Assembly: GCA_025362575.1 (NCBI GenBank)
Contig: JANYIQ010000076.1
Coordinates: forward strand, 1-33,169
DNA from: Bacteroidia bacterium
GTDB lineage: Bacteria > Bacteroidota > Bacteroidia > B-17B0 > Aurantibacillaceae
Reading direction: 5' to 3'
DNA length: 33,169 nt
Notes under the pieces: generated by a model
Databases searched by the model: none
What the model was told of the DNA's origin: nothing
The model's input: only the letters and a program-made list of their open reading frames with translations
Position numbers and translations under genes: made by a program
Part shown: piece by piece, positions 3,698 through 33,169 of the stretch
Layout: each line of letters starts with the position of its first letter
Position numbering within the stretch: position 1 is the first letter of the stretch

Positions 3698-4222
3698 TTG
3701 AAACGTTTGTTTAAATATGTGATTGTGTTTGTGGTTATTGCCTCCGGCTTTAGCTTCCGCGACAACGTTGATACAAACGCCAAAATAAAGGCAGTATTTT
3801 TATACAACTTTACACGTTATTTTGAGTGGCCCGATGCCAAAAAATCCGGCAATTTTCAGATTCAGGTAGTAGGTACCAATGCCAATCTGATCAAAGAATT
3901 GAACGAAGTAGCTATCAAGAAACAAGTTGGAAACCAGAAGATTGAGTTAATAAATACACCCATTTTCGATGGTTCAAAACCCCCACATATGTTGTTCTTA
4001 CTTCCTGATGCTTCAAAGGCTTTACCGGATGCCATCACTAAATTAAAAGGAAAAGGCACATTAATTATTTCTGAAAAAGAAGGAGCAGCTAAAACCGGCT
4101 CTGCAATAAATTTTGTGGTTATAGATAATAAGCAGAAATTCGAATACAGTAAAAACAGTGCGGTTAAAGCCGGTTTAAAAACTAGTGAGGATTTTAAAAG
4201 TTTAGCAATTGCAGTAGATTAA
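3698..4222 (+). CDS. YfiR-like (DUF4154) periplasmic protein
   Basis: The 174-residue product starts with a signal peptide (KRLFKYVIVFVVIASGFSF) and continues with the DUF4154 pattern: KAVFLYNFTRYFEWP near the N-terminus, FQIQVVG, a central LLPDAS turn, GTLIISEKEG, INFVV and a C-terminal LKTSEDFKSLA. In Pseudomonas, YfiR is a periplasmic inhibitor of the diguanylate cyclase YfiN. No cyclase is present here; the operon instead ends in a membrane-bound SpoIIE phosphatase. The start codon is TTG; it gives the positively charged signal-peptide beginning, and no suitable ATG follows. The TPR gene begins three bases after the stop, so co-expression is very likely. The partner assignment is inference. 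Confidence 0.85.
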   Translation: MKRLFKYVIVFVVIASGFSFRDNVDTNAKIKAVFLYNFTRYFEWPDAKKSGNFQIQVVGTNANLIKELNEVAIKKQVGNQKIELINTPIFDGSKPPHMLFLLPDASKALPDAITKLKGKGTLIISEKEGAAKTGSAINFVVIDNKQKFEYSKNSAVKAGLKTSEDFKSLAIAVD

Positions 4223-4225
4223 AAA

Positions 4226-5122: not shown

Positions 5123-5137
5123 GTATATTAAAAAGTA

Positions 5138-9043: not shown

Positions 9044-11620
9044 ATGAAGAAAACTTTACTTCTCGCTTTATCTTTAATTGTATTTGGCATGAAGGCTCAG
9101 CTAACCACTGGCTCATACAAAGATTATTTTAAAGAAGGTTCATATTTGTTTCTTGAAGAAAACTATGATGTAGCTCTTGTAAATTTCTTAAAAGCTTACG
9201 AATTGGATTCCTCTTCAGCTAACATCAATTACAATGTAGGAGTATGCTATTTAAAATCACCGACTCAAAAAAACAAGGCAGAGCGCTTTTTAACCAAAGC
9301 CGTTGCTCATGTTGACAGTAAATACAGAATTGACGATGCTACAGAAAAGAACGCGCCACCATTAGCTTATTTTTATTACGCTCAGGCCTTGCAGATCAAT
9401 TATCATTTTGATGAAGCAATAGCTAACTACAATAAATTCGCGCCGCTGGTTGCTACAGATAAAGAATGGACAAAAGACCTTATTTATTACAAAAAACAAA
9501 GTGAGTATGCAAAAGAACAGGTTGCCATGCCGCTTCCGGTATTGATAAGTTCAATGGGAGATAGCATTAACAGCGAATACCCAGATTACAGTCCTGTACT
9601 TTCTGCTGATGAACGTACAATGATCTTTACAACACGTCGTCCAAATAGCACGGGGCAGGAAAAAACTCCGGACGGACAATTTTTCGAGGATATTGTGGTT
9701 TCTTATCGCGATAACGAAGGAAGATGGAGCAAACCGGTTTCAATTGGTAATAACGTAAATACTACAGGTCATGAAGCTTCCATAAATTTATCACCCGACG
9801 GACAAACATTAATTGTATTTAAAGATGATGGTGGAAACGGAAATATTTATTTCACCCAGTGGGATGGAAAGACTTGGGGTCCGTTAGAATCATTTGGTTC
9901 CGACATCAACACCAAGAGCTGGGAATCACACGCCTGTTTAAATGCAGACGGAACCATTCTTTATTTCGTTTCTGATCGTCCGGGTGGACAAGGTGGTCGT
10001 GATATTTACCGCAGTGTTAAATTACCGAACGGTAAATGGAGTAAATCTTTGAACATCGGTCCAACTGTTAATACTCCATATGATGAAGAAGGTGCATTCA
10101 TTCATCCGGATGGAAAAACATTTTTCTTTGCATCAAAAGGACATCGTTCAATGGGTGGATTTGATATTATGTTCTCTATTATTGACGAAGACAATAAATT
10201 TTCTGAGCCCTTCAACATGGGGCATCCGATCAACACTCCCGATGACGATGTGTTTTATGTAACATCTCCCGACGGAAAAAGATCTTACCTATCATCTGCA
10301 AGAGAATTTGGTTTAGGAGAAAAAGATATTTACATGGTTACCATACCTGAAGCAAAAGAAAAAGCTTTGGCTTTATTTAAAGGTCAGATCATTCCTGCAG
10401 ATGGCGAACAGTTGCCTGAGGATATCGTTATCGTTGTAAAGGATAAAGTTTCGGGTGACATTATTGGTAGCTACCGTCCTAAGATCGTTAACGGAACGTT
10501 CAGTACCATTTTACCTCCGGGTAAAGAGTATAACTTCTCTTATCAGGCAAACGGCCAGGAGTTCTATAATGAAGATGTTTTTGTAAGCAATGAATTGAAT
10601 TATCAGGAGATCAAAAAAGAGATCAATTTAGAGCCGGTAAAAATTGCAGGTAAGGTTACTATCAAGAACAAAGGCATTCTTTTGAATGTTATTGTTTTAA
10701 ATAATGCTAAGGATAAAAAGCCGGTAGCAAATGCTAAAGTTACTTTAACAGATAAAGCCGGTGCTGTTACAACAATAGATGTTGATGATAAAGGAAGAAA
10801 AGAAGGAACCATGCTTGCATTAGATGATGCTTATACGCTTTTCGCAGAGTTTAACGGTAAAAAATCGACGACAAATAGTTTCAATACTAAAGGCATTAAA
10901 GGTTCAAAAACATTTAATGAGGTTCTTTACGTAGAGGAAAAAGCAAAAACAAGTGCTTATGCTTTATCGTTGAATGTTTCTGTTTACAGCAGTTCAAAAA
11001 CGCATAAACCACTTGCTAACGCTAATGTTATTTTGGTTGGTAATAATGGCAGCAAGGTTGAAGTTAAAACAGACGATAAAGGTCAGGTTAAAGGTATGAG
11101 TCTTGAATCGGATGTAAATTATGATCTGTCGGCTTCGATGAACGATATTTCTTCTGATAAAACATATTTCACTACCGCGAACACAAAAGCTAATAAAACG
11201 TATAACAAAACCTTGTATGTTCAGGCAGCCCCTGTAATTGAGAAATTACCGCCTACCAAATACGAATACTACTTCTCTTACAATAAAAATAAAAACGATG
11301 ATGCGGCAGAAGCATGGATCAATTTTATCGATCGCTTGGTTGAATTGAGTAAGAAGAGAAATGTGAGTGTTTCTATCGTGGCAAGTGCTTCTAAAGTACC
11401 TACAATGATCATATTTAAAGACAATAAGGAATTAGCAAAATCACGCGCTCAGATCATGCAGGATAAGATCAATGAAGCGGTTGCGGCTAAAGGCGGCGAT
11501 GTTTCAAAACTTAAATTCAGCAAGCAATCAAGTGTTAACGGTCCGGGTTGGCATAACGACCACGTTGAAAGAAGATTGATCTTTGAGAAGTATCAGTTCG
11601 TAAAAGTTACTTCTAAGTAA
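9044..11620 (+). CDS. PorE-like envelope protein: TPR, PD40 propeller, carboxypeptidase-regulatory-like and OmpA-like domains
   Basis: The 858-residue product has a signal peptide (about 1-19, KAQ) and a TPR region (25-160). A beta-propeller of PD40 repeats (about 170-435) follows, with YPDYSPVLSADERTMIF, INLSPDGQTLIV and LNADGTILYFVSDRPGG. Next come a carboxypeptidase-regulatory-like domain (445-535), two tandem related Ig-like units (about 546-630 and 640-727, both with a DDKG turn), and an OmpA-like domain (735-858). This order is that of PorE, the T9SS-associated protein thought to link the outer membrane machinery to peptidoglycan. The OmpA motif keeps NKELAKSRA with Arg801, but the usual Asp-containing loop is replaced by VASASKVPT. 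No lipobox is seen. The unit has its own terminator. Confidence 0.8.
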   Translation: MKKTLLLALSLIVFGMKAQLTTGSYKDYFKEGSYLFLEENYDVALVNFLKAYELDSSSANINYNVGVCYLKSPTQKNKAERFLTKAVAHVDSKYRIDDATEKNAPPLAYFYYAQALQINYHFDEAIANYNKFAPLVATDKEWTKDLIYYKKQSEYAKEQVAMPLPVLISSMGDSINSEYPDYSPVLSADERTMIFTTRRPNSTGQEKTPDGQFFEDIVVSYRDNEGRWSKPVSIGNNVNTTGHEASINLSPDGQTLIVFKDDGGNGNIYFTQWDGKTWGPLESFGSDINTKSWESHACLNADGTILYFVSDRPGGQGGRDIYRSVKLPNGKWSKSLNIGPTVNTPYDEEGAFIHPDGKTFFFASKGHRSMGGFDIMFSIIDEDNKFSEPFNMGHPINTPDDDVFYVTSPDGKRSYLSSAREFGLGEKDIYMVTIPEAKEKALALFKGQIIPADGEQLPEDIVIVVKDKVSGDIIGSYRPKIVNGTFSTILPPGKEYNFSYQANGQEFYNEDVFVSNELNYQEIKKEINLEPVKIAGKVTIKNKGILLNVIVLNNAKDKKPVANAKVTLTDKAGAVTTIDVDDKGRKEGTMLALDDAYTLFAEFNGKKSTTNSFNTKGIKGSKTFNEVLYVEEKAKTSAYALSLNVSVYSSSKTHKPLANANVILVGNNGSKVEVKTDDKGQVKGMSLESDVNYDLSASMNDISSDKTYFTTANTKANKTYNKTLYVQAAPVIEKLPPTKYEYYFSYNKNKNDDAAEAWINFIDRLVELSKKRNVSVSIVASASKVPTMIIFKDNKELAKSRAQIMQDKINEAVAAKGGDVSKLKFSKQSSVNGPGWHNDHVERRLIFEKYQFVKVTSK

Positions 11621-19366: not shown

Positions 19367-20035
19367 ATGGTTATTTCCTTTACCGAAGAAAATTACTTAA
19401 AAGCTATTTATACACTTTCAAATCAGTATGATTGGGTGGAAGTAAGTACGAATCAAATTTCGGCGCATTTAAAAAATAAAGCGGCTACGGTTACTGATAT
19501 GCTGAAGCGTTTGTCGGAAAAGAAGTTGATAGCTTACAAACCTTATCAAGGGGTTAAATTAACAGATAAAGGAAAACGTACTGCTATCACTGTTGTGAGA
19601 AAGCACCGTTTGTGGGAAGTTTTTCTGGTGGATAAATTGAATTTTAAATGGGATGAAGTTCATGATATTGCCGAACAACTTGAACACATTCATAGCGATG
19701 AACTTATTGAAAAATTGGATGATTTTTTGGGCCGCCCGAAAAGTGATCCGCACGGAGATCCTATTCCCGATGCCAATGGAAAGTTTTCAAATAAGAGATC
19801 GATACTGTTATCATCAGGCGTTAAGAAAGGAAGTTATGTTGTTACCGGAGTTACTGATCATTCAACTTCGTATTTGCAGTACTTAACGCAATTAGGAATT
19901 AGCCTTGGTTTTCAATTAAAGATAGAGGAAATAAACGAGTACGATCAGTCTTTAAAAATAAAGATCAATAATAAACAAAGTAATTTCATCAGTCACAAAG
20001 CCGCTTCACATTTATTAGTGGAGCAAAGATCATGA
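19367..20035 (+). CDS. mntR: DtxR/MntR-family metal-dependent transcriptional repressor
   Basis: The 222-residue protein has an N-terminal winged helix (about 1-72, STNQISAHLKNKAATVTDMLKRLSEKKLI) and a metal-binding dimerisation domain (75-135). That domain carries His80, Glu84, His99, Glu103, Glu106 and His107 in the pattern of DtxR family ligands. A C-terminal FeoA/SH3-like domain occupies about 140-215. Glu103 stands where DtxR has a metal-binding Cys, as in manganese-responsive MntR. It would bind Mn(II) and repress uptake genes from the palindrome just upstream. The stop overlaps the mntH start (ATGA), so the two are translationally coupled. Manganese specificity is inferred from neighbour and ligand pattern. 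Confidence 0.9.
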   Translation: MVISFTEENYLKAIYTLSNQYDWVEVSTNQISAHLKNKAATVTDMLKRLSEKKLIAYKPYQGVKLTDKGKRTAITVVRKHRLWEVFLVDKLNFKWDEVHDIAEQLEHIHSDELIEKLDDFLGRPKSDPHGDPIPDANGKFSNKRSILLSSGVKKGSYVVTGVTDHSTSYLQYLTQLGISLGFQLKIEEINEYDQSLKIKINNKQSNFISHKAASHLLVEQRS

Positions 20036-21906
20036 ATTTAAATAAAGGTAAATCTTTAGAAGAAGTAAACGCTTCGGTAAACACCGAATCAAAGCGGGGC
20101 ATAAGAGGTTTGTTAGCCTTTCTTGGGCCGGCTTATATGATCAGTGTTGGTTACATGGATCCGGGCAACTGGGCCACAGACATTGCCGGTGGAAGTCAGT
20201 TTGGTTACAGTTTATTGTGGGTATTGATCATGAGTAACATTATTGCTTTGTTGTTGCAAAGTCATAGTGCGCGTTTAGGAATTGTTACCGGAAAAGATCT
20301 GGCGCAGGCAAGCCGAGAAAGTTACCCGCGTTTCGTGAATTTGTTTTTATATCTGCTGGCCGAGATCGCCATCGCGGCTTGTGATCTGGCAGAAGTGATC
20401 GGGATGGCCATTGGTATTCACTTGTTATTTCCTCAAGTGCCTTTAGTGTGGGGAGTGATCATTACTGTTTTGGATAGTTTTGTATTGTTATTCTTATTAA
20501 ATAAAGGAATACGAAAACTCGAAGCTTTTATTATTTCATTGGTTCTTTTGATCGGTGTTTCATTTTTAATTCAATTGATTATAGCCAAACCTAACTTTGT
20601 GGAAGTGGCAAAAGGGATCATTCCCGGAATCGCCAACGAAGATGCTTTGTATATTGCAATTGGTATCATTGGTGCAACGGTTATGCCGCATAATTTATAT
20701 CTGCATAGTTCTCTTGTTCAAACCCGAAAATTCAAACGCACAGAACCGGAAATAAAAAAGGCAATAAAATTCAATCTGATCGACAGTACAGTTGCTTTAA
20801 ATCTTGCCTTATTTGTAAATGCCGCCATTTTAATTCTTGCAGGCGCTTCTTTTTTTACGAACGGATTAAATAACGTAGCCGAAATTCAGGATGCTCATCG
20901 TTTATTAGAACCTATGTTAGGAAGCACTTTAGCACCTTTATTATTTGCAGTGGCTTTGATTGCGGCAGGACAAAGCTCAACAATAACGGGCACTCTGGCA
21001 GGGCAGGTGATCATGGAAGGCTATCTGAATCTACGATTGGCTCCATGGATCAGAAGATTAATGACACGATTGATCGCCATCATTCCGGCCTTATTAACTA
21101 TTTTAATTTTAGGTGAAAGCAGCACAGGAAAATTATTGATACTAAGTCAGGTTATTTTAAGTTTGCAATTGGGTTTCGCCGTCATTCCATTAATTCATTT
21201 TGTGAGTGATAAAAAGAAGATGGGTGAATTCGCCATTCCGATGTGGCAAAAAGTGGCGTCATGGCTTGCTGCATTGATCATAATCGGATTAAACATTAAA
21301 TTGGTTTACAGTGTTTTGGTCGATTGGATCCTTTCTTCTGAGAGTCCGCTCATGATAAGCTTCACCATTGTGCCGCTTTGTATCTTTTGCCTGATCATGC
21401 TTTTGTATATTACCTTTGCACCTGTATTTGCATCGCATCATCAGCATAAAAATTTCGATTTTCATGGTGTTGTGCAGGCTTTACAGTTTGATAAAATAGA
21501 AAATTACAAGAACATTGCCATTTCAGTGGATTTTAGTAAAAGCGATAATAAGGCGATCTCAAAGGCTTTAAAGCTTGGGGGTAAGGAAGCCCGTTATTTA
21601 CTGGTTCACGTTTTAGAAAGCACCAATGCTGTTGTTTATGGTGAAGATGCTTTTGATATGGAACGCGAGCAGGATTATAAGGATCTGAAGCTTTATGTAG
21701 ATCAGATCAAGGAAAAAGGATTTGATTGCGATATGGCTTTAGGATTTGGTAATCCAAAAACAGCTATACCTTATCTGGTAAATAAAAATAATTGCGACAT
21801 GCTTGTTATGGGTACACATGGTCATAGAACCATTAAAGATATTTTACTCGGAACAACAATTGAAAGTGTAAGGCACAACATTAAAGTGCCTTTGGTTCTG
21901 GTTTAG
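20032..21906 (+). CDS. mntH: NRAMP-type manganese transporter fused to a C-terminal UspA domain
   Basis: The 624-residue protein joins an NRAMP proton-coupled divalent metal importer of the inner membrane (about 25-470, many hydrophobic helices) to a cytoplasmic universal-stress-protein domain (about 489-624). NRAMP signatures are DPGNW at 43-47 (metal ligands Asp43, Asn46) and ATVMPHNLYLHS at 215-226 (Ala215, Met218). The UspA part ends with GTHGH-x9-GTT-type ATP-binding residues (MGTHGHRTIKDILLGTT) and VPLVLV. The tail may sense ATP or stress to tune transport; that is inference. Its start overlaps mntR by four bases. Its stop overlaps the stop of the convergent sensor phosphatase gene by four bases. 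Confidence 0.95.
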   Translation: MNLNKGKSLEEVNASVNTESKRGIRGLLAFLGPAYMISVGYMDPGNWATDIAGGSQFGYSLLWVLIMSNIIALLLQSHSARLGIVTGKDLAQASRESYPRFVNLFLYLLAEIAIAACDLAEVIGMAIGIHLLFPQVPLVWGVIITVLDSFVLLFLLNKGIRKLEAFIISLVLLIGVSFLIQLIIAKPNFVEVAKGIIPGIANEDALYIAIGIIGATVMPHNLYLHSSLVQTRKFKRTEPEIKKAIKFNLIDSTVALNLALFVNAAILILAGASFFTNGLNNVAEIQDAHRLLEPMLGSTLAPLLFAVALIAAGQSSTITGTLAGQVIMEGYLNLRLAPWIRRLMTRLIAIIPALLTILILGESSTGKLLILSQVILSLQLGFAVIPLIHFVSDKKKMGEFAIPMWQKVASWLAALIIIGLNIKLVYSVLVDWILSSESPLMISFTIVPLCIFCLIMLLYITFAPVFASHHQHKNFDFHGVVQALQFDKIENYKNIAISVDFSKSDNKAISKALKLGGKEARYLLVHVLESTNAVVYGEDAFDMEREQDYKDLKLYVDQIKEKGFDCDMALGFGNPKTAIPYLVNKNNCDMLVMGTHGHRTIKDILLGTTIESVRHNIKVPLVLV

Positions 21907-24900
21907 AACTTAACGCTTATTAAAAGGACGTCGTCAACCTGCTCGTACTCACCTTTCCAACCGTAAAACTCTTCATTGATCTTTTCATCCTGTTCTTTGG
22001 TTGTAAGAGGGGCAATATTCTGTAAAAAGCCTGCTAAGCGCATGCTCGAATATTTTTTACCTCTATCGCCACCTTGCTGATCAACTATTCCATCTGAGAA
22101 TAGGAATAAATTATCTCCCGGCTTCACTTCCCAGATGTTTAGTACGAAAGGTTTTTGTATGTCTTTAAATGCACCGCCGATAGAGTAAGGCGGACTTTTA
22201 AATTTCTGTAATTCACCATCTCTGTAAATTAAAACAGGTCTAACAGCAGCGCTGAATTCCAATATTTTTGTAGCAGGATTAAATTTAGCAATAGATAGAT
22301 CCATTCCGTCCATGTTAATTTCTCCTTCACGAGAGTGCTGATTAAGAACTTTATTTACCTGGGCATCCAGTTTATGTAATATCTCAACCGGATTTAATTC
22401 CTGGTTAGCAGTAACTATCTCATCGAGCAGGGTAGAGCCAATGAACGACATGAATGCTCCCGGTACACCGTGACCCGTACAATCAACTGCAGCAATGAAG
22501 GTGTACTTGTCTGTTTTTTTGTACCAGTAAAAATCACCGCTAACAATATCCTTAGCTCTGTAAAAACAAGAAACGTCAAAACCTTCTCTAATATATGCGT
22601 CTAATGGCAACAGGGCTTCCTGAATGCGTTTGGCGTAATTGATACTATCGGTAATATCTTTGTTCTTTGACTTGATCTCGCCAAAAAGAACTTCGATCTT
22701 TTCTTTTTCTTCAACGATCTCAGAGGTTTTTTGTACAATGATCTCTTCCAGTTTCTTCTGTTCGGCTAATAATTTTTTGGTTCTGATCTTTATTAAACTA
22801 TAAACAGATACCGAAAGAACTAAAACCAGGATGATGTAGAACCAATAGTTTTTCCAGAATGGTTTTTTAATGGTGATTGTAAAAGTAACAGGGTTAGAAT
22901 TCCAAAGGTCATCGTTGTTGGAAGCGTAAAGTAAAAGTTTATACTCGCCATCCTTTAGTTTTGGAAATTGTATTTTGCGGGTTTCACGCGTTAGCGGTTG
23001 CCACTCGTCTTGCAAACCTTCGAGTTTGTATTTGTATTTAACATTGGAGGGATCAGTTAAACAAACCCCAACGAAATCAATGGCCAGATCATAAGAGCTG
23101 TAGCTTAAAATGGTATCGCGTGTAGAAGATAGTTTCGTTCCGTTCAATGTGATCTGTAAAATATTGAGCGCAGGTTCTACTTCATTAAAATGTTGCTTGT
23201 TGGTATTTACTCTCGAAAAACCATTTGAGGTTCCAAATAAAATATCATGCGATTCGGTATCGTAAAAGAAAGAGTTCTCAATGAATCGTGTTTGTAATAG
23301 ATCGGATCCGGCAACAATCTTGTTAAAATTCTTTTTATTCTTATTCTTGTAAGAAATGCCATTCGTGTGGCCCACCCAGATCCCGTTTTTGAAATCTGCA
23401 ACTATCTCATAACAGTAATTCGATTTTAAACCGTTCTTAGTAGTAAAATGCTCAAAGAATTTACCGTTATATTTAAAAACACCATCTCCTATGGAAGCGA
23501 TCCATATGTTGTTGTCTCCGTCTTCGCACACAACTGTTGTGTTAAACTTATCGAGACCAGCTACATCCTCAAATTTTCTCACGGTTTTAAGATCATCAAC
23601 ATAATAAATTAATGTACCCGGAGAGCAAACCCACATGTGTTTTTTAGAATCGATGAAAATGAAACGAACGTTGTTATGAAGTAAACCCGACTCTGTATTT
23701 AATAACTGACTCTCAAAATTATCGGCGTTAATAACATATAAACCCGAAGTGGTACAGGCATAAATATTCTTTTCGTCTGAACTTAATGAGTTAACTGAAA
23801 TTTTGGCGTTACGCGTTATGAGCGGGATCTGAGTTACCGTTTTGAATAAAGTATCACTTTTAAAAAGTTCGCCTTCTGAAGAAGATAATATCAAACTGTT
23901 CTTATAACGTATCAGACAATTGATGCTTTTTTTTGCGAGTTTAGGGTGCGTTGCAAAATCAACCTTATCATCATGAAAATAACCGATTCCTTTTTTTGTT
24001 GCCACTATGATCCGGTTATTCAATTTAACGGTAGCGTTTACTGGTAGGTTGTGACCTTCGTTATCAATGATGTCGTAGTAACAATACAACTCACTATTCA
24101 ATTGCTGTAATCCGCTTCCGTATGTTCCGATCCATAAATTATCTTCACGGTCAATTAAAATACTTTCAATGGTATTTGATGTTAAACCGTTCTTAGTAGT
24201 AAAATTTAAAATGGTTTTTGTTTCAGGCGTTATTTTGTAAACACCATTTTCGGTAGTAGCTACATAAATATTGGCGAAGCGGTCGGTGATCAGCTTTTTA
24301 TAAACCGATCCGTCATTCTTTTTTAGTTTGAAAGTATCAACAGCATTTAATTTACCGTTGTTTTGAAAGGTTAAGATACCGGATTGATTATCGGCAACTA
24401 CTATCAGGTCTTTGGCAGTATTTAGCCGCATCAATACAGCTTCTTTAAGTTTTATGATAGAATTGGTCTCATATTTTTTGTTCAATAAGTTCTGGATCTT
24501 GATCGAGTAGATTCCGTCGGGCTTTAATAAATATAATTCATCTTTTACAACAGCAATGCTTAACACCTCATTGAAATTATCATTTTCAATGTTTGTATAA
24601 GCGGTGGTAGCGTAGTTGTATAAAATGAATCCGGTGTTATTCTTTAAAAAAACGTAGTTGTTAGGTGATAATTCCGCTATCTGAATGATCTTTGATCCGA
24701 TCTCTTCTTTGTAAACAACCTGTTCGATCAGTCCTGAATTATGAAGCATGCTCACTTTCCCTTCCTGATGACCAAGCCACATAACATTCTTAGAATCGCG
24801 GAAAATGGCGGTTATGAAATCGTGAGCAAGACCTCTCTCTTTATTGAATATCTGAAAAGAATTCCCGCCATAGGTAGCCAAACCATTGGCCGTTGCAATG

Positions 24901-25046
24901 TAAATGAATCCACGGTTATCCTGACTCAGTTCATTTACAAAAGACTGTGGCAAACCATCGTCTTCTGTATAATTTTTGAAGGAATAGATCTGCGAGTAGC
25001 CCGAATAACCAATGAAGCAAAGTAACAGGAAAATTATTTTTTTCAT
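21903..25046 (-). CDS. Periplasmic Reg_prop/Y_Y_Y sensor fused to a SpoIIE-type phosphatase
   Basis: The 1047 residues start with a signal peptide (about 1-18, YSGYSQ). Two seven-bladed-propeller-like regions of Reg_prop repeats (about 20-640; motifs such as LSQDNRGFIYIATANGL and DREDNLWIGTYGSGL) follow, then a Y_Y_Y immunoglobulin-like domain (652-729), one transmembrane helix (about 735-753) and a coiled coil (760-799). The linker DSINYAKRIQEALLP precedes a SpoIIE/PP2C domain (about 800-1047) with SGDFYW, VDCTGHGVPGAFMS (854-867), MDGMDLS, FSDGIVDQ and QVDDVL. The periplasmic half is that of hybrid two-component sensors, but the kinase is replaced by a phosphatase. It is the last gene of the adhesin cluster, so it may sense adhesin or polysaccharide state; the target protein is unknown. 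Confidence 0.92.
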   Translation of the reverse strand: MKKIIFLLLCFIGYSGYSQIYSFKNYTEDDGLPQSFVNELSQDNRGFIYIATANGLATYGGNSFQIFNKERGLAHDFITAIFRDSKNVMWLGHQEGKVSMLHNSGLIEQVVYKEEIGSKIIQIAELSPNNYVFLKNNTGFILYNYATTAYTNIENDNFNEVLSIAVVKDELYLLKPDGIYSIKIQNLLNKKYETNSIIKLKEAVLMRLNTAKDLIVVADNQSGILTFQNNGKLNAVDTFKLKKNDGSVYKKLITDRFANIYVATTENGVYKITPETKTILNFTTKNGLTSNTIESILIDREDNLWIGTYGSGLQQLNSELYCYYDIIDNEGHNLPVNATVKLNNRIIVATKKGIGYFHDDKVDFATHPKLAKKSINCLIRYKNSLILSSSEGELFKSDTLFKTVTQIPLITRNAKISVNSLSSDEKNIYACTTSGLYVINADNFESQLLNTESGLLHNNVRFIFIDSKKHMWVCSPGTLIYYVDDLKTVRKFEDVAGLDKFNTTVVCEDGDNNIWIASIGDGVFKYNGKFFEHFTTKNGLKSNYCYEIVADFKNGIWVGHTNGISYKNKNKKNFNKIVAGSDLLQTRFIENSFFYDTESHDILFGTSNGFSRVNTNKQHFNEVEPALNILQITLNGTKLSSTRDTILSYSSYDLAIDFVGVCLTDPSNVKYKYKLEGLQDEWQPLTRETRKIQFPKLKDGEYKLLLYASNNDDLWNSNPVTFTITIKKPFWKNYWFYIILVLVLSVSVYSLIKIRTKKLLAEQKKLEEIIVQKTSEIVEEKEKIEVLFGEIKSKNKDITDSINYAKRIQEALLPLDAYIREGFDVSCFYRAKDIVSGDFYWYKKTDKYTFIAAVDCTGHGVPGAFMSFIGSTLLDEIVTANQELNPVEILHKLDAQVNKVLNQHSREGEINMDGMDLSIAKFNPATKILEFSAAVRPVLIYRDGELQKFKSPPYSIGGAFKDIQKPFVLNIWEVKPGDNLFLFSDGIVDQQGGDRGKKYSSMRLAGFLQNIAPLTTKEQDEKINEEFYGWKGEYEQVDDVLLISVKF

Positions 25047-25050
25047 TGTG

Positions 25051-25057
25051 CTCCTTT
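25051..25057 (-). promoter_or_regulatory. Strong Shine-Dalgarno sequence AAAGGAG
   Basis: On the minus strand AAAGGAG lies four bases before the ATG of the sensor phosphatase. Bacteroidota genes rarely use Shine-Dalgarno pairing, and I saw no comparably strong site at the other starts I inspected, so this one stands out. It may raise translation of the final gene of the cluster independently of its neighbours. Confidence 0.5.
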
Positions 25058-25061
25058 GGAT

Positions 25062-26018
25062 TTATTTAGTGACTTTGATCTTGTATTTGAATTTCGGAAC
25101 ACCGCCAATTGGTACGGAGAAGAAGGCAAGCGACTCGCCATATTGGTTCTGAATGTAAATGGTAATGTTGTTATTCTTAACCGGTTTTTTCTTTATGAAT
25201 TGAACATCAAGCGAAGTGTTTATTTCATCAGCAACAATTTTATGTTCAGAAGCTTCCCAGTTGGTTCCTTTTTCAATAGTGGTTTCTTCTGCTTTTTTTG
25301 CAACCGATATAATTCGAATATTGCCTTCTTCATCATAATCATATACGTGAATGTTCACGGCTGTAATTCCTTTAGATATGAAAGGATAGAGGTGAGATAC
25401 AGATCCTACATTGTCAGCGGTTCTTAAGCAATATTCATAAGTAAAAATGTTTCCGCCTTCTACTTTAATATTATCATCTTTTGAAGTAGATAAACTTAGT
25501 CGGTATAAATTCCCATCATCACCATCTAAACCTTCAACAACCAATTTAAAAACATTACCATCAAATTCGGGTAGAAATTCGCCTTCAAGCGGGTTAATAG
25601 GACCGAAGTTGAACCATTTATCATCAACAGAAGCATCTTCACCAAAAGTTTTGGTATACAATAAAGAACCGCTGTTGTAATTTCCTTTAGGGTCTATTGC
25701 CTGAGCATCTTTATTGCTGTGAGCGCCTTTTCCACCGTAAACAGAATATTTGGTTTTAGAATTAAATCCGCCGCGGTTTTCATCATATTTGCCGCCATTA
25801 TCCGGGTCAAATACTCTGATAAAAAAAGGTGTTTTAATGTCTTTTGGAATGGTGAAGAAATAGATCTGAATATTATCGTCATCTCCCCAGGTTTTATCAG
25901 CCTGTTTACTGAAAGTAACGAGGTAAGGAATGTTCTCATCAGTTGAAGGCATTACCTGAGAAAACAATGAAAATTTTGTCGCTAAAAAGAGCAGAGTAAG
26001 GGTGAGCGTTTTTTTCAT
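25062..26018 (-). CDS. Unrecognised secreted protein in the adhesin cluster
   Basis: The 318-residue product has a signal peptide (about 1-21, FSLFSQ) and a beta-rich mature chain. Its middle part is acidic and Gly/Asp/Asn-rich (DPDNGGKYDENRGG, GLDGDDGNLYRLSL), which could bind calcium or sugars. The C-terminus is Lys-rich with alternating strand patterns (NITIYIQNQYGESLAFFSVPIGG). I do not recognise a domain. There is no T9SS C-terminal signal domain, so it probably stays in the periplasm or at the inner face of the outer membrane. It lies 15 bases upstream of the sensor phosphatase and 46 bases after the SPOR-domain protein. A ligand-binding or accessory role for the sensor is inference from position only. 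Confidence 0.8.
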   Translation of the reverse strand: MKKTLTLTLLFLATKFSLFSQVMPSTDENIPYLVTFSKQADKTWGDDDNIQIYFFTIPKDIKTPFFIRVFDPDNGGKYDENRGGFNSKTKYSVYGGKGAHSNKDAQAIDPKGNYNSGSLLYTKTFGEDASVDDKWFNFGPINPLEGEFLPEFDGNVFKLVVEGLDGDDGNLYRLSLSTSKDDNIKVEGGNIFTYEYCLRTADNVGSVSHLYPFISKGITAVNIHVYDYDEEGNIRIISVAKKAEETTIEKGTNWEASEHKIVADEINTSLDVQFIKKKPVKNNNITIYIQNQYGESLAFFSVPIGGVPKFKYKIKVTK

Positions 26019-26064
26019 AGTTATAGTACCATTTTTAATGATGCTATATTAATAAATTATATCA

Positions 26065-29000
26065 TTATTTGGTAGTAAAAACGCCTTTTTTCTCGAGGTT
26101 TTCCATATAAATACGCTTTCCATGGTAGAAAATGCACACAAAAGCGTCGGTTTGGCCTGCCATTATTACTTTTTTATTCTGTTCAAAGGCTTCTCTTAAG
26201 GTTTTATAAGATCCTCCAATGGTCATGCGGGTAATACCGTTCTCAATTCCTGCTTTCTCAATTACGCCCAGTCCAAGCTTGTTTAAACGCGGGAAATCCC
26301 AGTCTTTTCTGTATTTGAAGAGCGCTATTTGAACCTTATATTCAACACCTTCAACGGCCATATCACCATATTTTTCGATATAAGCCATAGTTTTTCTCTG
26401 AACTACGGTTGTTGGCACAAAATCCTTGGTATCGTATTCTTTGGCAGGAGCAGATTCAGCAAGAACATCGTTCTCAGCTGCTTTTTCCTTAGGTGCTTTT
26501 TTGGTTTTACGCTCTGTTTTCTCAATTAAATTATTTTCGTTAATTACAGTTTCATTGTCACTCGCAAGGGCTTCACCTTTTTTGTTGATCACGCCGCGTT
26601 TTTCAAGATTTTCAATGTAGATCCGTTTGCCTTTGTAGTAAACCGATACGAAAGCATCCTCATGACCTCTTTTAAATACTTTTTTATTGAGTTCAAAAGC
26701 CTCTTTAAGAGTTTTAAAAGAACCTCCAATGGTCATGCGTGTTAATCCGTCTTCAAGTGATTCGCTTTCAACTTCACCTAATCCGCTTAGCTTAGGAAAA
26801 TGATACCTTTTGCGATGCCTGTAAACACCAACCTGAACTTTAAATTCAAGATCCTTTGCACTGATGTCACCGTACTTTTTAAGATACAGCATTATTTTTT
26901 TCTGAATGTCTGTTTTAGGAATAAAGTCTGCGTCGCCCGACATGGCTTCGTTTATCTCGTTTGTTGCAGTAGATACATCGCTGTTTGAATCGCTCGAATT
27001 TTCGTGATAGGTATTTGAATTGTTATTTTCTTTTTTGTTTGAGTGCTTATTTTTCGAAACTTTTTCTTTTGGAGTGTTCTTAGAGTTCTTTTCTGAGTTT
27101 GTAGTTTCGTTTGAATTGGAGTTTTGATTTTCGGAGTTATTATTTGATGCTAAAACTGTATTGTTTTCTTTTGTTGGATTTGCCGCATTGTTATCGTTGC
27201 TTGTTTTATTTCCCTGCGAATTATCAGCAGCATTGTTTTTTAAATTGTTATCTGCTGCATTCGAATTTTCATTTGTATTCGATGAATTTTCTTTCGCATT
27301 GTTGGAAGCGGTAGCCTCTGTTGTAGCAGTGGAAGCAGTTACAGCCTTTGGTTTGATCTTGCTTTTATCTTCATAAAAAGTTGCGTCCTTAATGTTTTTA
27401 GATTGATCTTCTATGATCTGACCATTTTTGTAAGCAATTACAACCGGGTTTTCTACTCCGGCATTCAATACGTTTTTATATGATTTTTCAATTGCATTGA
27501 TCTTTTTCTCGTCGCCATAGGTGTATTGATATTCGCCGTTGATCAATTGCTGATTGATACCGGTTATGCCATTAGCGCTGATGGCGGTTGTATCTTTTAA
27601 ATTCTTGCTTTTCCCTAAATGTACTTTAAAGGTTACGCCATCTCCTTCTTTCAGATCAAACAAGGTGTCAATGTCGCCTTTCATGTATTTATATTTGAGA
27701 GAGAATGCTGTGCTTGATCCGCTTAGTTCTACCGGAGCATTTCCTGTTTTGTTCCTGTCTTCAACGTAAGTTTTTATTCCATCGGCAACTTTTTTGCCAT
27801 TAAGTCCGGATTTGGTATAATTCATGCTTACATCGTCGTAATTGATAGCTGCTAAAGCAGAAGAATCGGATTTGAATTTTGAGGAACCATATTTGAGAAC
27901 TTCTTCTGCAATTTTTCTTTTTTCAACACCCGCCCAAACCTGCGCATTTACAGCTACAATGTTCTTGGTGGTACACATGAGTTGTTTTTTTGTTGAACCC
28001 TTTTGAGTATAAGTGATCCCCAGCTTAACAACATGACTTCCCAATTCTTCAAAGGTGTGTTCGATCGATCGTCCTCTAATACGTTTACCTTCTATTTCAT
28101 AGAAGTATCCTGTAATTTTTTTATCCGGTAAAAAAGTTCCGATCGTATTAATATTGAATTCACGGTCTACTAAAACAGTATCCAGTGAATTTATTTTTAA
28201 TTGAACGATCGAATCCACAGCGAGATCAAAAGAAGCCTGGGTCATGAATACCTGCTTGGTGGTAGAATCTACAACATTCAGGTTTATTAAATAGTTTCCC
28301 GGACCAATAAAGCAATGCCTTACTTCCAATCCTTTTTGTTTGGTACCATCTCCAAATAACCACTCATAATAATAACCCTTTAATGAATCTGTATTCAAGG
28401 TGCTTTCTTCACTTAGGTTATAACAATAGTCTTCTTTAACCTGTTCAACACAATTTTTAAATGATGGCCAGGTCTTTGTAAAAAAGAAGATATCATCCTG
28501 ATTTTCATTTCTGCTAGTTGAGAAATATCCGTTCTCTTCGAGTGAATCAATGTAAATTCCGAAGTCATCGTATTTTGTGTTGATTGGGCTTCCCAGGTTT
28601 TGAATCACCGCATTGCCGCTATCTATGGTGCATTTGTATATATCTAAGCCGCCATAACCCCCGGTCTGGGTACTTGAGTAATAGATCTCATTTTCGCTTA
28701 CCGCAAAAGGAAAGTATTCGTTTTCTTCGGTATTGATACTCGTATAATTCGTGAAGATCTTCCAGGTACTGTCTTTATATTCGGCAATGTAAATATCTGT
28801 TTTACCTTTTCCTCCAGGTAAATTAGCCGAAAAATAAAGTTTGTGATCGTATATCATGGGATGCGATGCCGAAAAAGTATCTGCAAGCACCATCTCCGGT
28901 TTTGGTGTTTCAAAAACATTGTTTTTTAGTAGCGAAGAGTAAATTGCAAGTTTGTGTTTTTCCTTGACACCTGAGCCCGGTATTTTTATATCGGTAGAGT

Positions 29001-29367
29001 AATAAAGTTTGGAACTTTCTCTATCAAAAAAGCAGGAACCCTGATTAAGAGGATTGTTGATCTTATCTGTTAAGGCTTTAACTTTTTTTACTGTAATTGA
29101 ATCTGAAAGGGTTCCTGAATATAGATCCAGCATCTGATGCAGGGTAGAGGCTTCCATATTAATAACGCCGATCTTTCTTTCTTGTGATGAAGTATAATAA
29201 AGTGTATTGCCAATTTTATACGGGCCAAATTCAGATTCTTCGGTATTTATGTTCAGAGGCTTTAACTGAATGTTTGTAGAGTCAAAATAAAAATTATTCT
29301 GCGCGAAAGAACATAGCTTTAGCATAAAGCAAAAAAAGAAGAACAAGGTTTTATGCTTTAAGGTCAT
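26065..29367 (-). CDS. PD40/PKD envelope protein with three SPOR-like domains
   Basis: The 1100-residue product has a signal peptide (about 1-23) and PD40-type propeller repeats (about 40-300, e.g. NEIYYSSTQTGGYGGLDIY). A PKD domain (about 320-372, YYEWLFGDGT) and a second PKD-like unit (about 395-472) follow. A SPOR-like domain lies at about 577-655 (VTFKVHLGKSKN to AYKNGQII), then an Asn/Ser-rich linker of about 140 residues (675-813), and two further SPOR-like domains at about 814-928 and 982-1100 that are clear duplicates (FKVQVGV/YKVQIAL; RMTIGGS-KTL-EAFE-NKKV; GKRIY-ENLEK-GV). SPOR domains bind denuded peptidoglycan, so it may tie the outer-membrane PorP-like protein encoded upstream to the cell wall. 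Its start shares one base with the PorP-like stop (TAATG). Confidence 0.82.
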   Translation of the reverse strand: MTLKHKTLFFFFCFMLKLCSFAQNNFYFDSTNIQLKPLNINTEESEFGPYKIGNTLYYTSSQERKIGVINMEASTLHQMLDLYSGTLSDSITVKKVKALTDKINNPLNQGSCFFDRESSKLYYSTDIKIPGSGVKEKHKLAIYSSLLKNNVFETPKPEMVLADTFSASHPMIYDHKLYFSANLPGGKGKTDIYIAEYKDSTWKIFTNYTSINTEENEYFPFAVSENEIYYSSTQTGGYGGLDIYKCTIDSGNAVIQNLGSPINTKYDDFGIYIDSLEENGYFSTSRNENQDDIFFFTKTWPSFKNCVEQVKEDYCYNLSEESTLNTDSLKGYYYEWLFGDGTKQKGLEVRHCFIGPGNYLINLNVVDSTTKQVFMTQASFDLAVDSIVQLKINSLDTVLVDREFNINTIGTFLPDKKITGYFYEIEGKRIRGRSIEHTFEELGSHVVKLGITYTQKGSTKKQLMCTTKNIVAVNAQVWAGVEKRKIAEEVLKYGSSKFKSDSSALAAINYDDVSMNYTKSGLNGKKVADGIKTYVEDRNKTGNAPVELSGSSTAFSLKYKYMKGDIDTLFDLKEGDGVTFKVHLGKSKNLKDTTAISANGITGINQQLINGEYQYTYGDEKKINAIEKSYKNVLNAGVENPVVIAYKNGQIIEDQSKNIKDATFYEDKSKIKPKAVTASTATTEATASNNAKENSSNTNENSNAADNNLKNNAADNSQGNKTSNDNNAANPTKENNTVLASNNNSENQNSNSNETTNSEKNSKNTPKEKVSKNKHSNKKENNNSNTYHENSSDSNSDVSTATNEINEAMSGDADFIPKTDIQKKIMLYLKKYGDISAKDLEFKVQVGVYRHRKRYHFPKLSGLGEVESESLEDGLTRMTIGGSFKTLKEAFELNKKVFKRGHEDAFVSVYYKGKRIYIENLEKRGVINKKGEALASDNETVINENNLIEKTERKTKKAPKEKAAENDVLAESAPAKEYDTKDFVPTTVVQRKTMAYIEKYGDMAVEGVEYKVQIALFKYRKDWDFPRLNKLGLGVIEKAGIENGITRMTIGGSYKTLREAFEQNKKVIMAGQTDAFVCIFYHGKRIYMENLEKKGVFTTK
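26068..26928 (-). repeat. Duplicated SPOR-like coding units
   Basis: Two copies of a roughly 115-residue unit, encoded at 26928-26585 and 26424-26068, share the same order of motifs: DF-P at the start, KYGD, KVQ, FP-L, G-TRMTIGGS, and GKRIY-ENLEK-GV at the end. A Lys/Glu-rich spacer of about 53 residues separates them. The copies have diverged, so this is an old duplication and not an active tandem array. Confidence 0.75.
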
Positions 29368-30254
29368 TAGAAGAATCTTGGGGTAGGCGCGTTTGAAAAT
29401 TTACCAAAGAAGTAGTTTAACATGATCTCATGTGTGCCTGAATTGTATTTTCTAAGTTTGCCGATCGATAGATCGTAAGCATAACCAACTTTTATTCTTC
29501 TGTCAAGTAAACAATCAAAATAAGCTACTATTGCATCTTTGTTCCTGTAAGCCACTCCAACACCCAGTATTTCTTTGAAATAGGTTGTGAAGTTCACATC
29601 GAACTGCACCGGAGAATTTTTTACCCCTCTCACCAGGAAACTTGGTTTAATGGTAACATCATCATTGATCTTGTAAACATAACCTCCAACAAGATTGAAC
29701 TCTGCATACCAGCTTCCTCCGCTGATGTTAAAGAGTTCAGGTGATGATAGGCCAACATACATTTTTTTAGTATAATAAAATATACCTGCGCTGGTATTGA
29801 ATTTATTCACAACCGGAGAATTGGTATTAAAGGTTTCATCCCCTTGAGTAGTGGTTCTTAATTTACTGTAATCATAAAAAATTCTTTTATACGCAGGCTG
29901 AACTCCGAATGAGATCGTTTTTTTACGGTCGATCTTTATTCTGTACGCAAAAGCAAGTTTTACGTTTGTGATACTGGTTAATCCTATTTTGTCGTTGTAA
30001 TATTGAACGCCAAGTGATAAATTCTTTGGCTTTATCTCTAAACTTGATAAAATGCAAACTGTTTGCGGCGCTCCGGTTATACCTGCCCACTGCTTACGGT
30101 AAAAGCAAGTCACGTCAAGCGCTTTTTTCTGACCGGCATACGCAGGATTCACGTCAAATAAATTAAATAAATAATTTGATGTGAGTGTAGAATGCTGCGC
30201 CCAAATTACATTTGAGGTAATTGCGAAGATCAATATGTAAAATAATTTTCTCAT
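29367..30254 (-). CDS. PorP/SprF family outer membrane protein
   Basis: The 295-residue product has a signal peptide (about 1-19, IWAQ) and the PorP/SprF hallmark NLFDVNPAYAG followed by YRKQWAGITGAPQT. The rest is alternating beta strands (SLGVQYYNDKIG, FGVQPAYKRIFY, VGLSSPELF), consistent with an outer-membrane barrel. SprF of Flavobacterium johnsoniae is encoded beside the giant adhesin SprB and is needed for its export or anchoring. Here the gene overlaps the end of a giant adhesin by four bases (ATGA), the same arrangement. A paired role for this adhesin is therefore well supported by context. The gene overlaps the next one by one base. Confidence 0.93.
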   Translation of the reverse strand: MRKLFYILIFAITSNVIWAQHSTLTSNYLFNLFDVNPAYAGQKKALDVTCFYRKQWAGITGAPQTVCILSSLEIKPKNLSLGVQYYNDKIGLTSITNVKLAFAYRIKIDRKKTISFGVQPAYKRIFYDYSKLRTTTQGDETFNTNSPVVNKFNTSAGIFYYTKKMYVGLSSPELFNISGGSWYAEFNLVGGYVYKINDDVTIKPSFLVRGVKNSPVQFDVNFTTYFKEILGVGVAYRNKDAIVAYFDCLLDRRIKVGYAYDLSIGKLRKYNSGTHEIMLNYFFGKFSNAPTPRFF

Positions 30255-33169
30255 CGTTTCACCATTATATAACCTGTTCTTACTTTGTTGTCTAAGCTGA
30301 TCACATAGAAATAGGTATCGTCTGTAAGCGGCTGACCGGTCATGTTCAAGCCATTCCAGTTATTATTGTAATTTGAATTTTCATAAACTACATTTCCCCA
30401 GCGATTCAATATCTTCACTTCTATTTTAGTATATGAATCTGATAATGGAATTTCAAGGAAATCATTAATGCCATCACCGTTAGGGGAGATCGCGTTCGGT
30501 ATCTCCAATTCAATTAAAGTAATGTTGATCTCATCTTCGGTGTAACCGCATACATCTGTTATTTTCCAACGTATAGTATTTATACCGGGTTTAATGGCGG
30601 TAATTGAAGTAGTGTTCAGAGCAGAATTTAAAATGTTATAACTGCCTCCTACATACTCCCAACTTCCAATGCCCGAAGTTGGGGTATTAGCACTTAAACC
30701 AAATGCATTAACGTATATGGTAGTATCATTACCCGCAAAGGCCTGCTGGATCGGTGCGATAATTCCAATTGAAACGGTATCTGATGAAACAGGACAAGAT
30801 CCATTGCTTATCGACCACACTAAGGCATTTGTTGAAGTGGATAAACTCGTCACCAAAGATGAATTAAGCGTAGGGGTTGTTACTGAACCACCGCCGGTAA
30901 ATACTGTCCAGATGCCTGTTCCAACAACTGGCACGTTTGCATTCAATGTTGCTGTTGAAAAACAAACCATTTGATCAGGACCTGCATTGGCCACAGTAGG
31001 TAAAAGTTGCAGCTCAATATTCATGGTATCAGATGTGGTAGGGCAAACACCGTTAGATGTTATCCATACCAATGAATTTGTTCCTACTGATAATCCGGTT
31101 ACCAAAGATGTATTTAATGTTGGGCTTGTCACCGAAGAAGCGCCTCCAATTACAGTCCATGTTCCAACGCCTGTGGTCGGAAGTAAAGCGTTAAGATTGG
31201 CAGTATTTGTGGTTAAACAAAACGCCTGATCAGGACCTGCATTCGCCGCAGAAGGGAAGGCATCAACAAATACATTCATGGTGCTGGTTGAAATCGGACA
31301 AACTCCATTTGATGTTGTCCAAACCAGCGAATTTGTTCCCGTACTTAATCCTGTAACCGCCGAAGTATTTAATGTAGTTGTTGTTACTGAAGAACCTCCT
31401 GAGATCACCGACCATGCACCGGTTCCAATAGCCGGTATGGTGCTGTTCAAAGTAGTGGTTGATGCACAAATGGTTTGATCCGGTCCTGCAACAGACGGAG
31501 AAGGATTCGGATCAACAAGAATGTCAACTGTACTAGTTGAAGCTGGGCATACACCGTTAGAGATGCTCCACACAAATGAATTTACTCCTATAGTTAAACT
31601 ACTTATAGCAGAAGTGTTTAATGTTGGAGTGGTAACAGTTGAACCTCCCGCAATTACCGACCACAATCCAGTACCAACGGTTGGTGTATTAGCACTTAAA
31701 GTTGCAGTTGAAACGCAAAGTGTTTGAGTAGAACCGGCGATTGCAGTAGTCGGGTAAAGGTCTCTGAAAATGGTTACGGTATCCAATGAATTCGGACAAG
31801 ATCCAAATCCTGTTGACCATACAAATGTATTAGCACCAAAGCTTAATCCTGTAATGCCTGAATTATTCACGTTTGTAAATGTAACCGCTGAACCTCCTGC
31901 GATCACAGTCCAAATACCCGTTCCAACAAAAGGAACATTTCCGTTTAATGTAGCAGTGCTGGCACAAACCGTGAAATCAGTTCCTGCATTAGCAGGTGTT
32001 GGGAACGGATTTACGTTGATCAATACAGTACTTGTTGAGGCAGGACAAACACCGTTAGAAATTGTCCATACAATATTATTTGTTCCCGTTATTAAACCTG
32101 TAATTCCTGAACTGTTTAAAGTAGGAGTAGTTACAGTGGAGGTACCTGAAATTACAGTCCAGACTGCCGTTCCTACTGTAGGAATATTTGCATTTAAAGT
32201 CGTTGAAGCAATGCATAAATTTTGATTAGGTCCTGCATTGGATACCGTTGGCATATCGTCAACATTGATTGTAACACTTGAAGTTGAAGTAGCGCAAGGA
32301 GAATTTGAGATCGACCATTCAAATACGTTGGCTCCAACTCCCAATCCGGTTACACTTGTTGCAGGTGAAAGCGAGTTTGTTATAGTTCCGCTTCCTGAAA
32401 TTAAACTCCAGGTTCCAACTCCAACTAAAGGAGTGTTTCCTGTTATTGCAACAGTAGGATTATTAACGCAAATGGTTGTATTGGTAATTGCGCTTGCCAC
32501 AGTTGGCATATCGTTAACAGTGATCGTAACATAATCACTCAGGGGGCTGCATGGGTTATTAGAAATGGTCCATGCAAATACGTTTGTTCCCACAGGCATT
32601 CCGGTAATGGCGGTTGTAGGAGATGTTGGACTCACAATAGTTCCACCACCTAAAACTACTGTCCATAATCCGGTTCCCACTGTTGGAGTATTAGCAGCCA
32701 TAAGGGTTGTTGGTGTTGAGATACAAAGTGTTTGATTTGGCCCTGCAAGCGGAGTAGTAGGTACGTCGTTTACATATAATGTAACATTTGAAACTGATGA
32801 TAAACAAGGTGAATTAGAAATGGTCCATGCAAAAACGTTAGCACCTAATCCCATTCCGGTTACCGGAGTTGTTGGTGATGAAGGAAGCATAATAGTGCCG
32901 CTTCCCGAAACTAATGTCCAGCTTCCGGTTCCAATGGCCGGAGTATTTCCGTTCATGAAATAATTAGGGCTGGAGATACAAACTGTGTTGTTAACGCCGG
33001 CAGAAGCAATGGTAGGTAATGGATTAACCGTTATGGTCATAATATCAACCGATGCGGCACAGGGTGAATTGGAAATGGTCCATGCAAAAACATTGTTACC
33101 AACAGTTAAACCGGTAATGGTTGTAGTAGGAGATGTAGCACTTGTAATCACTCCGGTTCCAGAAACTAA
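30251..33169 (-). CDS. Giant repetitive T9SS-secreted adhesin, C-terminal part (open at window edge)
   Basis: The frame stays open to the last base of the window; the GTG at 33151 is an internal Val, not a start. The visible 972 residues are a tandem array of about eleven beta-rich units of roughly 83 residues, each with G-W, a TGL-x-G-N-F/V-W strand, ISN-x-x-C and a second Cys (VCIS type). A C-terminal domain of about 83 residues follows (IPNAISPNGDGINDFLEI, ILNRWGNVVYE, GQPLTDDTYFYVISL, GYIMVKR). This is the gliding-motility-associated (CHU_C, type B) signal used for T9SS export and surface attachment. The protein should be displayed on the cell surface as an adhesin. Its stop overlaps the PorP/SprF gene, which likely handles it. 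Confidence 0.93.
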   Translation of the reverse strand, partial: LVSGTGVITSATSPTTTITGLTVGNNVFAWTISNSPCAASVDIMTITVNPLPTIASAGVNNTVCISSPNYFMNGNTPAIGTGSWTLVSGSGTIMLPSSPTTPVTGMGLGANVFAWTISNSPCLSSVSNVTLYVNDVPTTPLAGPNQTLCISTPTTLMAANTPTVGTGLWTVVLGGGTIVSPTSPTTAITGMPVGTNVFAWTISNNPCSPLSDYVTITVNDMPTVASAITNTTICVNNPTVAITGNTPLVGVGTWSLISGSGTITNSLSPATSVTGLGVGANVFEWSISNSPCATSTSSVTINVDDMPTVSNAGPNQNLCIASTTLNANIPTVGTAVWTVISGTSTVTTPTLNSSGITGLITGTNNIVWTISNGVCPASTSTVLINVNPFPTPANAGTDFTVCASTATLNGNVPFVGTGIWTVIAGGSAVTFTNVNNSGITGLSFGANTFVWSTGFGSCPNSLDTVTIFRDLYPTTAIAGSTQTLCVSTATLSANTPTVGTGLWSVIAGGSTVTTPTLNTSAISSLTIGVNSFVWSISNGVCPASTSTVDILVDPNPSPSVAGPDQTICASTTTLNSTIPAIGTGAWSVISGGSSVTTTTLNTSAVTGLSTGTNSLVWTTSNGVCPISTSTMNVFVDAFPSAANAGPDQAFCLTTNTANLNALLPTTGVGTWTVIGGASSVTSPTLNTSLVTGLSVGTNSLVWITSNGVCPTTSDTMNIELQLLPTVANAGPDQMVCFSTATLNANVPVVGTGIWTVFTGGGSVTTPTLNSSLVTSLSTSTNALVWSISNGSCPVSSDTVSIGIIAPIQQAFAGNDTTIYVNAFGLSANTPTSGIGSWEYVGGSYNILNSALNTTSITAIKPGINTIRWKITDVCGYTEDEINITLIELEIPNAISPNGDGINDFLEIPLSDSYTKIEVKILNRWGNVVYENSNYNNNWNGLNMTGQPLTDDTYFYVISLDNKVRTGYIMVKR
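30503..33169 (-). repeat. Tandem array of about eleven Ig-like adhesin repeats (about 250 bases each)
   Basis: Ten units carry a W-[ST]-x-[ST]-[NG]-x-x-C motif: NSPC (three times) and NNPC in the first four, then GVCP or GSCP in the next six. The eleventh is divergent (RWKITDVCGY) and lacks the other Cys (TIYVNA replaces the VCxS segment). Units 1-4 share the form SGSGTI-SPTT and units 5-10 share GGSxVTTPTLNTS, so two subfamilies sit side by side. The first unit is cut by the window edge. Most units hold two Cys and could form disulfides. Confidence 0.8.

Follow-up and report, generated by a model that had tools for sequence, protein, structure and literature searches.

A conserved gene block in Bacteroidia joins genes for a putative type IX surface complex, an exported protein of a candidate new family, and a propeller sensor phosphatase

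A five-gene block conserved in order and inheritance

We analyzed a stretch of 33,169 nucleotides from a Bacteroidia bacterium (the window), in which five minus-strand open reading frames form a block whose gene order recurs in related genomes and whose most constant members are an exported protein, here called sec, and the sensor encoded directly after it. In our reading, to which we give roughly even chances, the block encodes a PorE-type anchored surface complex that sec would connect to a SiaA-like sensor. The genes are transcribed in the order type B cargo, PorP/SprF barrel, PD40/PKD protein, sec, and Reg_prop/Y_Y_Y/SpoIIE sensor, and lie close together: at the first two junctions the genes overlap by 4 and 1 bases, and the next two leave gaps of 46 and 15 bases. 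A recheck of the five frames reproduced exactly the positions, strand, overlaps, and gaps given by the original prediction, and profile searches agreed with its domain calls, finding CHU_C in the adhesin, PorP_SprF, PD40/PKD, and Reg_prop-Y_Y_Y-SpoIIE. The genes of the block, and the two repeats within the third of them, are as follows.

30251-33169, minus strand: T9SS type B cargo, a repeat-rich surface protein with a CHU_C C-terminal sorting domain, 972 amino acids, 5' end open
29367-30254, minus strand: PorP/SprF-family outer-membrane barrel, 295 amino acids (PF11751, TIGR03519)
26065-29367, minus strand: protein with a PD40 propeller (PorE-like region), PKD, a low-complexity linker, and two SPOR-like repeats, 1100 amino acids
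26533-26937, minus strand: first SPOR-like repeat, residues 811-945, 54% identical to the second
26068-26487, minus strand: second SPOR-like repeat, residues 961-1100, beta-alpha-beta-beta-alpha-beta, AlphaFold pLDDT 78
25062-26018, minus strand: sec, an exported protein with a signal peptide and two predicted beta-sandwich domains, 318 amino acids
21903-25046, minus strand: sensor with Reg_prop, Y_Y_Y, and SpoIIE, 1047 amino acids

The window comprises contig C101 in full, from a 4.3-Mb Bacteroidota assembly, and the start of the adhesin gene and any promoter fall beyond the contig end at 33169. At the other side of the block, the sensor gene and the convergent mntH share 4 bases at their 3' ends. 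Matches from promoter and terminator scans were no more numerous than expected from shuffled sequence.

Searching 60 relatives for sec located it in 23, and the mapped loci repeated the five-gene order. A search across 84,980 species genomes then yielded 497 sec places, of which the 80 closest to the window, rather than a random sample, contributed to a pooled set of 87 distinct loci; distant members are hardly sampled in it, and its gene calls are mechanical. In this pooled set, a propeller sensor followed sec on the same strand in 82 of the 86 loci with a downstream neighbor, at a median gap of 9 bases. On the other side of sec, the same pooled loci had a PD40 gene in 68 of 84 cases, then PorP in 60 of 64 that have another neighbor, and then a CHU_C gene in 55 of 56, and the entire order adhesin-PorP-PD40/PKD-sec was found in 55 of them. 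The carriers belong to the Bacteroidales, Marinilabiliaceae, Cytophagales, and further Bacteroidia, with the cultivable Breznakibacter xylanolyticus (L128) and Geofilum rhodophaeum (L151) among them, and a genome of another family in the same class (L169) holds the full order. The original prediction had proposed, as its own test, that genomes of relatives should have the five families as neighbors too, and this is strongly borne out. In a phylum-wide sample of 296, a single genome other than that of the window had stand-alone sec; this rarity indicates that the block is patchy across the phylum.

Sec and the sensor are also inherited together. Among 87 genomes of the order to which the window belongs, an orthologous sensor (threshold, E value of 1e-295 or better) was present in 34 of the 42 with sec and in none of the 45 without it (Fisher P = 7e-17). 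Of the 37 orthologous sensors, 34 came immediately after sec; each of the remaining three was on a different contig, and in those cases either sec or the sensor stood at or near a contig end. Several of the genomes with sec that were scored as lacking the sensor (L193 to L195 and L197) do carry a more distant or truncated one next to sec or nearby. In a second architecture, a TPR-PKD protein replaces the PD40-PKD protein, adhesin and PorP are missing, and sec and the sensor are mostly kept (loci without adhesin and PorP are L075, L076, and L190 to L195). The constant partner of the sensor is therefore sec, which persists with it without adhesin or PorP, and not the adhesin. Given this reduced form of the block, the adhesin may not be what the sensor reads.

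Sec, an exported protein that may act alongside PKD domains and the sensor

The description of the fourth gene product as an unknown secreted protein held, in that sec has a signal peptide, no Pfam family, and no PDB relative by sequence; against NCBIfam it gave one weak match far below cut-off. About 50 columns are invariant in an alignment of 18 members. The predicted model (pLDDT 81) has two beta-sandwich domains, and a structural search with it returned matches at background level (Z about 8 or less), carbohydrate-binding modules being among these weak matches, and no fold beyond the beta-sandwich. In other Bacteroidota classes, sec-like domains stand at the N terminus of long proteins, and those read are PKD-repeat proteins. 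Together, the kept neighbors, the second architecture, and the sec-PKD fusions suggest that sec acts in the vicinity of PKD domains and of the sensor; for PKD this is read from neighboring genes and fused domains, PKD repeats being promiscuous. As separate observations, the loci at which a sec-like domain starts a long PKD-repeat protein are L170 to L175; a gene beside it codes for a FecR/Glucodextran_B protein in L170, L171, and L172, and in L170 and L174 both a histidine kinase and a SpoIIE protein are encoded nearby.

Cargo, barrel, and a periplasmic protein with a variable tail

The cargo matched PF13585 (CHU_C; E value, 9e-25; 87.1 bits against a cut-off of 27) and reached 55.8 bits with TIGR04131 (cut-off, 35), which places it among proteins with the type B sorting domain. 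It had been called a giant adhesin, but only 972 amino acids are visible in the window, its 5' end being cut by the contig end; cargo lengths are 1523 and at least 2404 amino acids in close relatives and 316 to 700 in many others. The barrel belongs to the PorP/SprF family (PF11751 at 3.8e-61, with 207.5 bits against a cut-off of 22.3; TIGR03519 at 222.6 bits against 90.55). The translocon gene sprA is present in the window's genome.

Whether such a cargo-barrel pair serves gliding can be judged from the barrel, since in SprF a cysteine pair links to GldK by a disulfide and so to the gliding tracks (PMC12635249). The Cys-x-Cys motif was found in the C-terminal tail of none of the 72 PorP proteins of the mapped loci, and the tail of the window's PorP ends in SNAPTPRFF. 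A gliding adhesin of the SprB-SprF type is therefore disfavored, and a static surface complex is the likelier arrangement.

The PD40/PKD protein matched NF052230 (PorE) over residues 39-298 with an E value of 2.4e-37 and PKD_4 with 3.2e-12. It is not PorE proper, as its 128.6 bits are far under the NF052230 cut-off of 600 and no TPR or OmpA match was found in the window's protein; a lipobox-like motif was seen in none of 64 PD40 members. The original prediction ascribed to it a SPOR domain and hence a peptidoglycan-binding link. The best PDB match of the second repeat was the SPOR domain of CwlC (1x60; Foldseek probability, 1.00), with a weak E value of 0.021, and the DedD SPOR domain was also among its best matches, again with a weak E value; a profile search with this second repeat gave a SPOR match at E 0.017. 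Profile search and model hence point to a SPOR fold for the tail repeats of the window, whereas Pfam calls no SPOR (PF05036) there and gives a sub-threshold match in L067. The wall-binding tail varies, being SPOR-like in the window's lineage and OmpA in some relatives. Many PD40 genes encode at most 561 amino acids (40 of 64), and the one short member scanned consisted of PD40 and PKD alone, with no wall-binding domain. The peptidoglycan link thus probably holds for the window's lineage but is not part of the core of the block, as most members appear to lack it.

A sensor with a kept outer half and a variable output half

The sensor combines Reg_prop (PF07494; 5.9e-21), Y_Y_Y (PF07495; 2.3e-14), and SpoIIE (PF07228; 1.6e-17), arranged as a periplasmic propeller with Y_Y_Y, a transmembrane segment (read from the sequence), a coiled coil, and a cytoplasmic SpoIIE/PP2C domain. 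Given that the PP2C acidic residues D838, D855, D985, D1038, and D1039 are invariant in 16 proteins, the phosphatase should be active. An assignment as SiaA proper was rejected, the sensor reaching 146.1 bits against a cut-off of 700 for the SiaA equivalog.

The two halves of the sensor differ in how closely they follow sec: distance matrices correlated at 0.94 between sec and the outer half and at 0.71 between sec and the catalytic half, in a comparison in which kinship of species by itself lifts all correlations. The window's catalytic half is only 30 to 35% identical to those of the nearest modules, against 56 to 58% for the outer halves of the same modules, and reaches 40 to 46% identity with several more distant modules. 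In a tree of catalytic domains, those of close relatives form a separate clade with support of 100/100, and the domain from L111 groups with paralogues of the window's genome. Finally, the Cytophagales member L141 has the same outer half and an output that consists of HATPase_c with a weak HisKA match. Based on the identity pattern, the tree, and this histidine kinase, the receptor appears to have been kept while its output was exchanged or diverged more than once, so that the constant pair would be sec and the outer half of the sensor, with the phosphatase half variable. A response by dephosphorylation, as originally proposed, fits the SpoIIE output in the window but not the histidine kinase output in Cytophagales. 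On a side note, sensors without a SpoIIE match were seen in L141, L145, and L159 (all labelled Cytophagales) and in L165.

SiaB and SiaC genes beside the sensor in relatives

In several relatives the block continues beyond the sensor, at which it ends in the window in agreement with the original prediction: SiaB and SiaC genes lie directly 3' of the sensor in L067, L072, L077, L078, L099, L115, and L138. In L194 (positions 3993-5374), two SiaB genes and one SiaC gene stand between sec and the sensor, a layout that would tie the partner switch directly to sec. The window's sensor has no adjoining SiaB or SiaC, and eight SiaC genes are found elsewhere in its genome. The phosphosite of SiaC in the SiaABC(D) system of Pseudomonas aeruginosa is T68 (PMC7647112), and the NTSS motif of the SiaC proteins studied here matches it. 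Propeller-SpoIIE sensors paralogous to the window's in the same genome also adjoin SiaB/SiaC. Because SiaB/SiaC lie beside the sensors of relatives, the phosphosite motif is kept, and the paralogues behave alike, SiaC is the likely substrate class of the sensor; any of the eight SiaC proteins in the window's genome could be the substrate. We found no reports in the literature of inputs to SiaB/SiaC proteins in Bacteroidota, and the block supplies a genomic context for these proteins outside Pseudomonas.

Comparison with known systems

Each half of the block is a known kind of system, and it is the fixed combination and the sec family that appear to be new. A literature search, which left out preprints and most subscription journals, found no paper on either, in line with the original remark that the combination was not familiar as a described system.

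The closest counterpart of the surface half is PorE-PorP-PG1035 of Porphyromonas gingivalis, where PorE holds PorP, which in turn holds a type B cargo (PMC9143113); static PorE-type operons have also been proposed for Flavobacterium johnsoniae (PMC12618676). As in those operons, type B cargo, PorP barrel, and periplasmic propeller are encoded together and some tails are wall binding. In contrast to them, the propeller protein of the block has PKD domains and lacks the lipobox-like motif, its tail is SPOR-like in the window and OmpA or absent in relatives, and the block adds sec and the sensor. With SprB-SprF the block shares a type B cargo and a cognate PorP/SprF-family carrier; it differs in the missing cysteine pair and in having a PorE-like gene, which sprB-sprF is without (PMC9143113).

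The signaling half resembles SiaABC(D) in its membrane sensor with SpoIIE/PP2C output, in the SiaB/SiaC genes of relatives, and in the kept T68 motif, but has a propeller as sensor half, no identified cyclase partner, and, in the window, no adjacent SiaB/SiaC. Its sensor half and the histidine kinase of the Cytophagales member are shared with Reg_prop/Y_Y_Y hybrid two-component systems, from which the window's sensor differs by its phosphatase output: only Reg_prop, Y_Y_Y, and SpoIIE were over cut-off in it, with no receiver or DNA-binding domain found. A surface protein that feeds a membrane sensor is known from the relay of P. gingivalis, in which PorA, carrying a type IX CTD, signals to PorXY-SigP (PMC7712824); the sensor, the proteins, and the two-component output of that relay are different.

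A proposed mechanism and its alternatives

Gene order, conservation, co-inheritance, domain content, catalytic residues, output variation, and the SiaB/SiaC genes of relatives are the observations on which we build the following scheme; its physical contacts, direction of signaling, ligand, output, and SiaC partner in the window's genome are our proposals. The type IX system would export the type B cargo, and the PorP/SprF-family barrel would keep it on the surface. The PD40/PKD protein would sit in the periplasm below the barrel, as PorE does below PorP, and in the window's lineage might also grip the cell wall via its two SPOR-like domains. Sec would act as a periplasmic adaptor, binding the PKD part of the surface complex on one side and the sensor's outer propeller half on the other. 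Whether that complex is occupied or under strain could then alter the sensor dimer and so set PP2C activity. The most likely target of the phosphatase would be a SiaC-type phosphoprotein, with a SiaB-type kinase as the opposing enzyme, in a partner switch as in SiaABC. Under this scheme the sensor may monitor adhesin state, and overall the original interpretation is partly supported.

The most radical alternative is that five unrelated genes were packed together by chance. With 46 SpoIIE matches (about one per 94 kb) and 18 PorP matches in the window's genome, some pairs are likely, and a few PorP-SpoIIE neighbors are expected in any case; that dozens of genomes from the lineages named above repeat the order shows that the adjacency is real, and we reject chance as having a negligible probability. 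An alternative of more weight takes the sensor for an ordinary ligand receptor and sec for a soluble protein that presents an external ligand, with the adhesin block as regulated target rather than as the thing sensed. Reg_prop and Y_Y_Y form the receptor half of hybrid two-component systems, including glycan-sensing sensors, and the window's sensor shares them; a member with HisKA, HATPase, and Response_reg adjoins the block in L196, sec and the sensor persist without the adhesin, and the beta-sandwich prediction for sec, with carbohydrate-binding modules among its weak structural matches, would suit a ligand carrier. Those matches are at background level, however, and in both architectures the neighbor of sec is an envelope protein with PKD, and sec-like domains are fused to PKD repeats elsewhere, which argues for a structural part rather than a free binding protein, so that we regard this alternative as somewhat unlikely. 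Still less probable, in our view, is that all exported members including sec are parts of one appendage and the sensor is merely coexpressed and governs something else. The 5' order of cargo, carrier, and anchor is that of other type B operons, and many paralogous SpoIIE proteins exist in the genome; yet sec and the sensor form the tightest pair, with shared presence and absence, which mere coexpression would not require.

If the reading of a surface complex wired through sec to the sensor is extended beyond the window, it is tempting to speculate that the block represents a widespread, hitherto undescribed outside-in signaling system of Bacteroidota, in which sec reports on a type IX surface complex to a sensor with exchangeable output and attachment is read mechanically or by occupancy. 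We consider this generalization possible but doubtful; if true, its outputs would be PP2C with SiaB/SiaC or a histidine kinase. Most of the numerous type B surface proteins of the type IX system have no assigned function, and the block bears on how Bacteroidota sense contact with a surface. With sec as a marker consisting of one gene, a defined sensor, and, in some relatives, a kinase and a phosphoprotein that are defined too, the block makes surface-to-cytoplasm signaling directly testable.

Other genes in the window

The window holds a second SpoIIE phosphatase, with a HAMP domain (5138-6916, plus strand), whose catalytic domain is 43% identical to that of the sensor and among its closest paralogues. 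Apart from the block, a further PD40-repeat protein of 858 amino acids with weak TPR and carboxypeptidase-regulatory-like matches is encoded at 9044-11620 (plus strand). An ECF-type sigma factor gene (2964-3557, minus strand) overlaps a gene for 444 amino acids without a Pfam match (1646-2980, minus strand), possibly a regulator of the sigma factor. Next to the block, 19367-21906 (plus strand) encodes a DtxR/MntR-type repressor with a FeoA domain and, after it, an Nramp transporter carrying a fused universal stress protein domain, and this repressor-Nramp pair stays beside the block in three genomes of the same genus.
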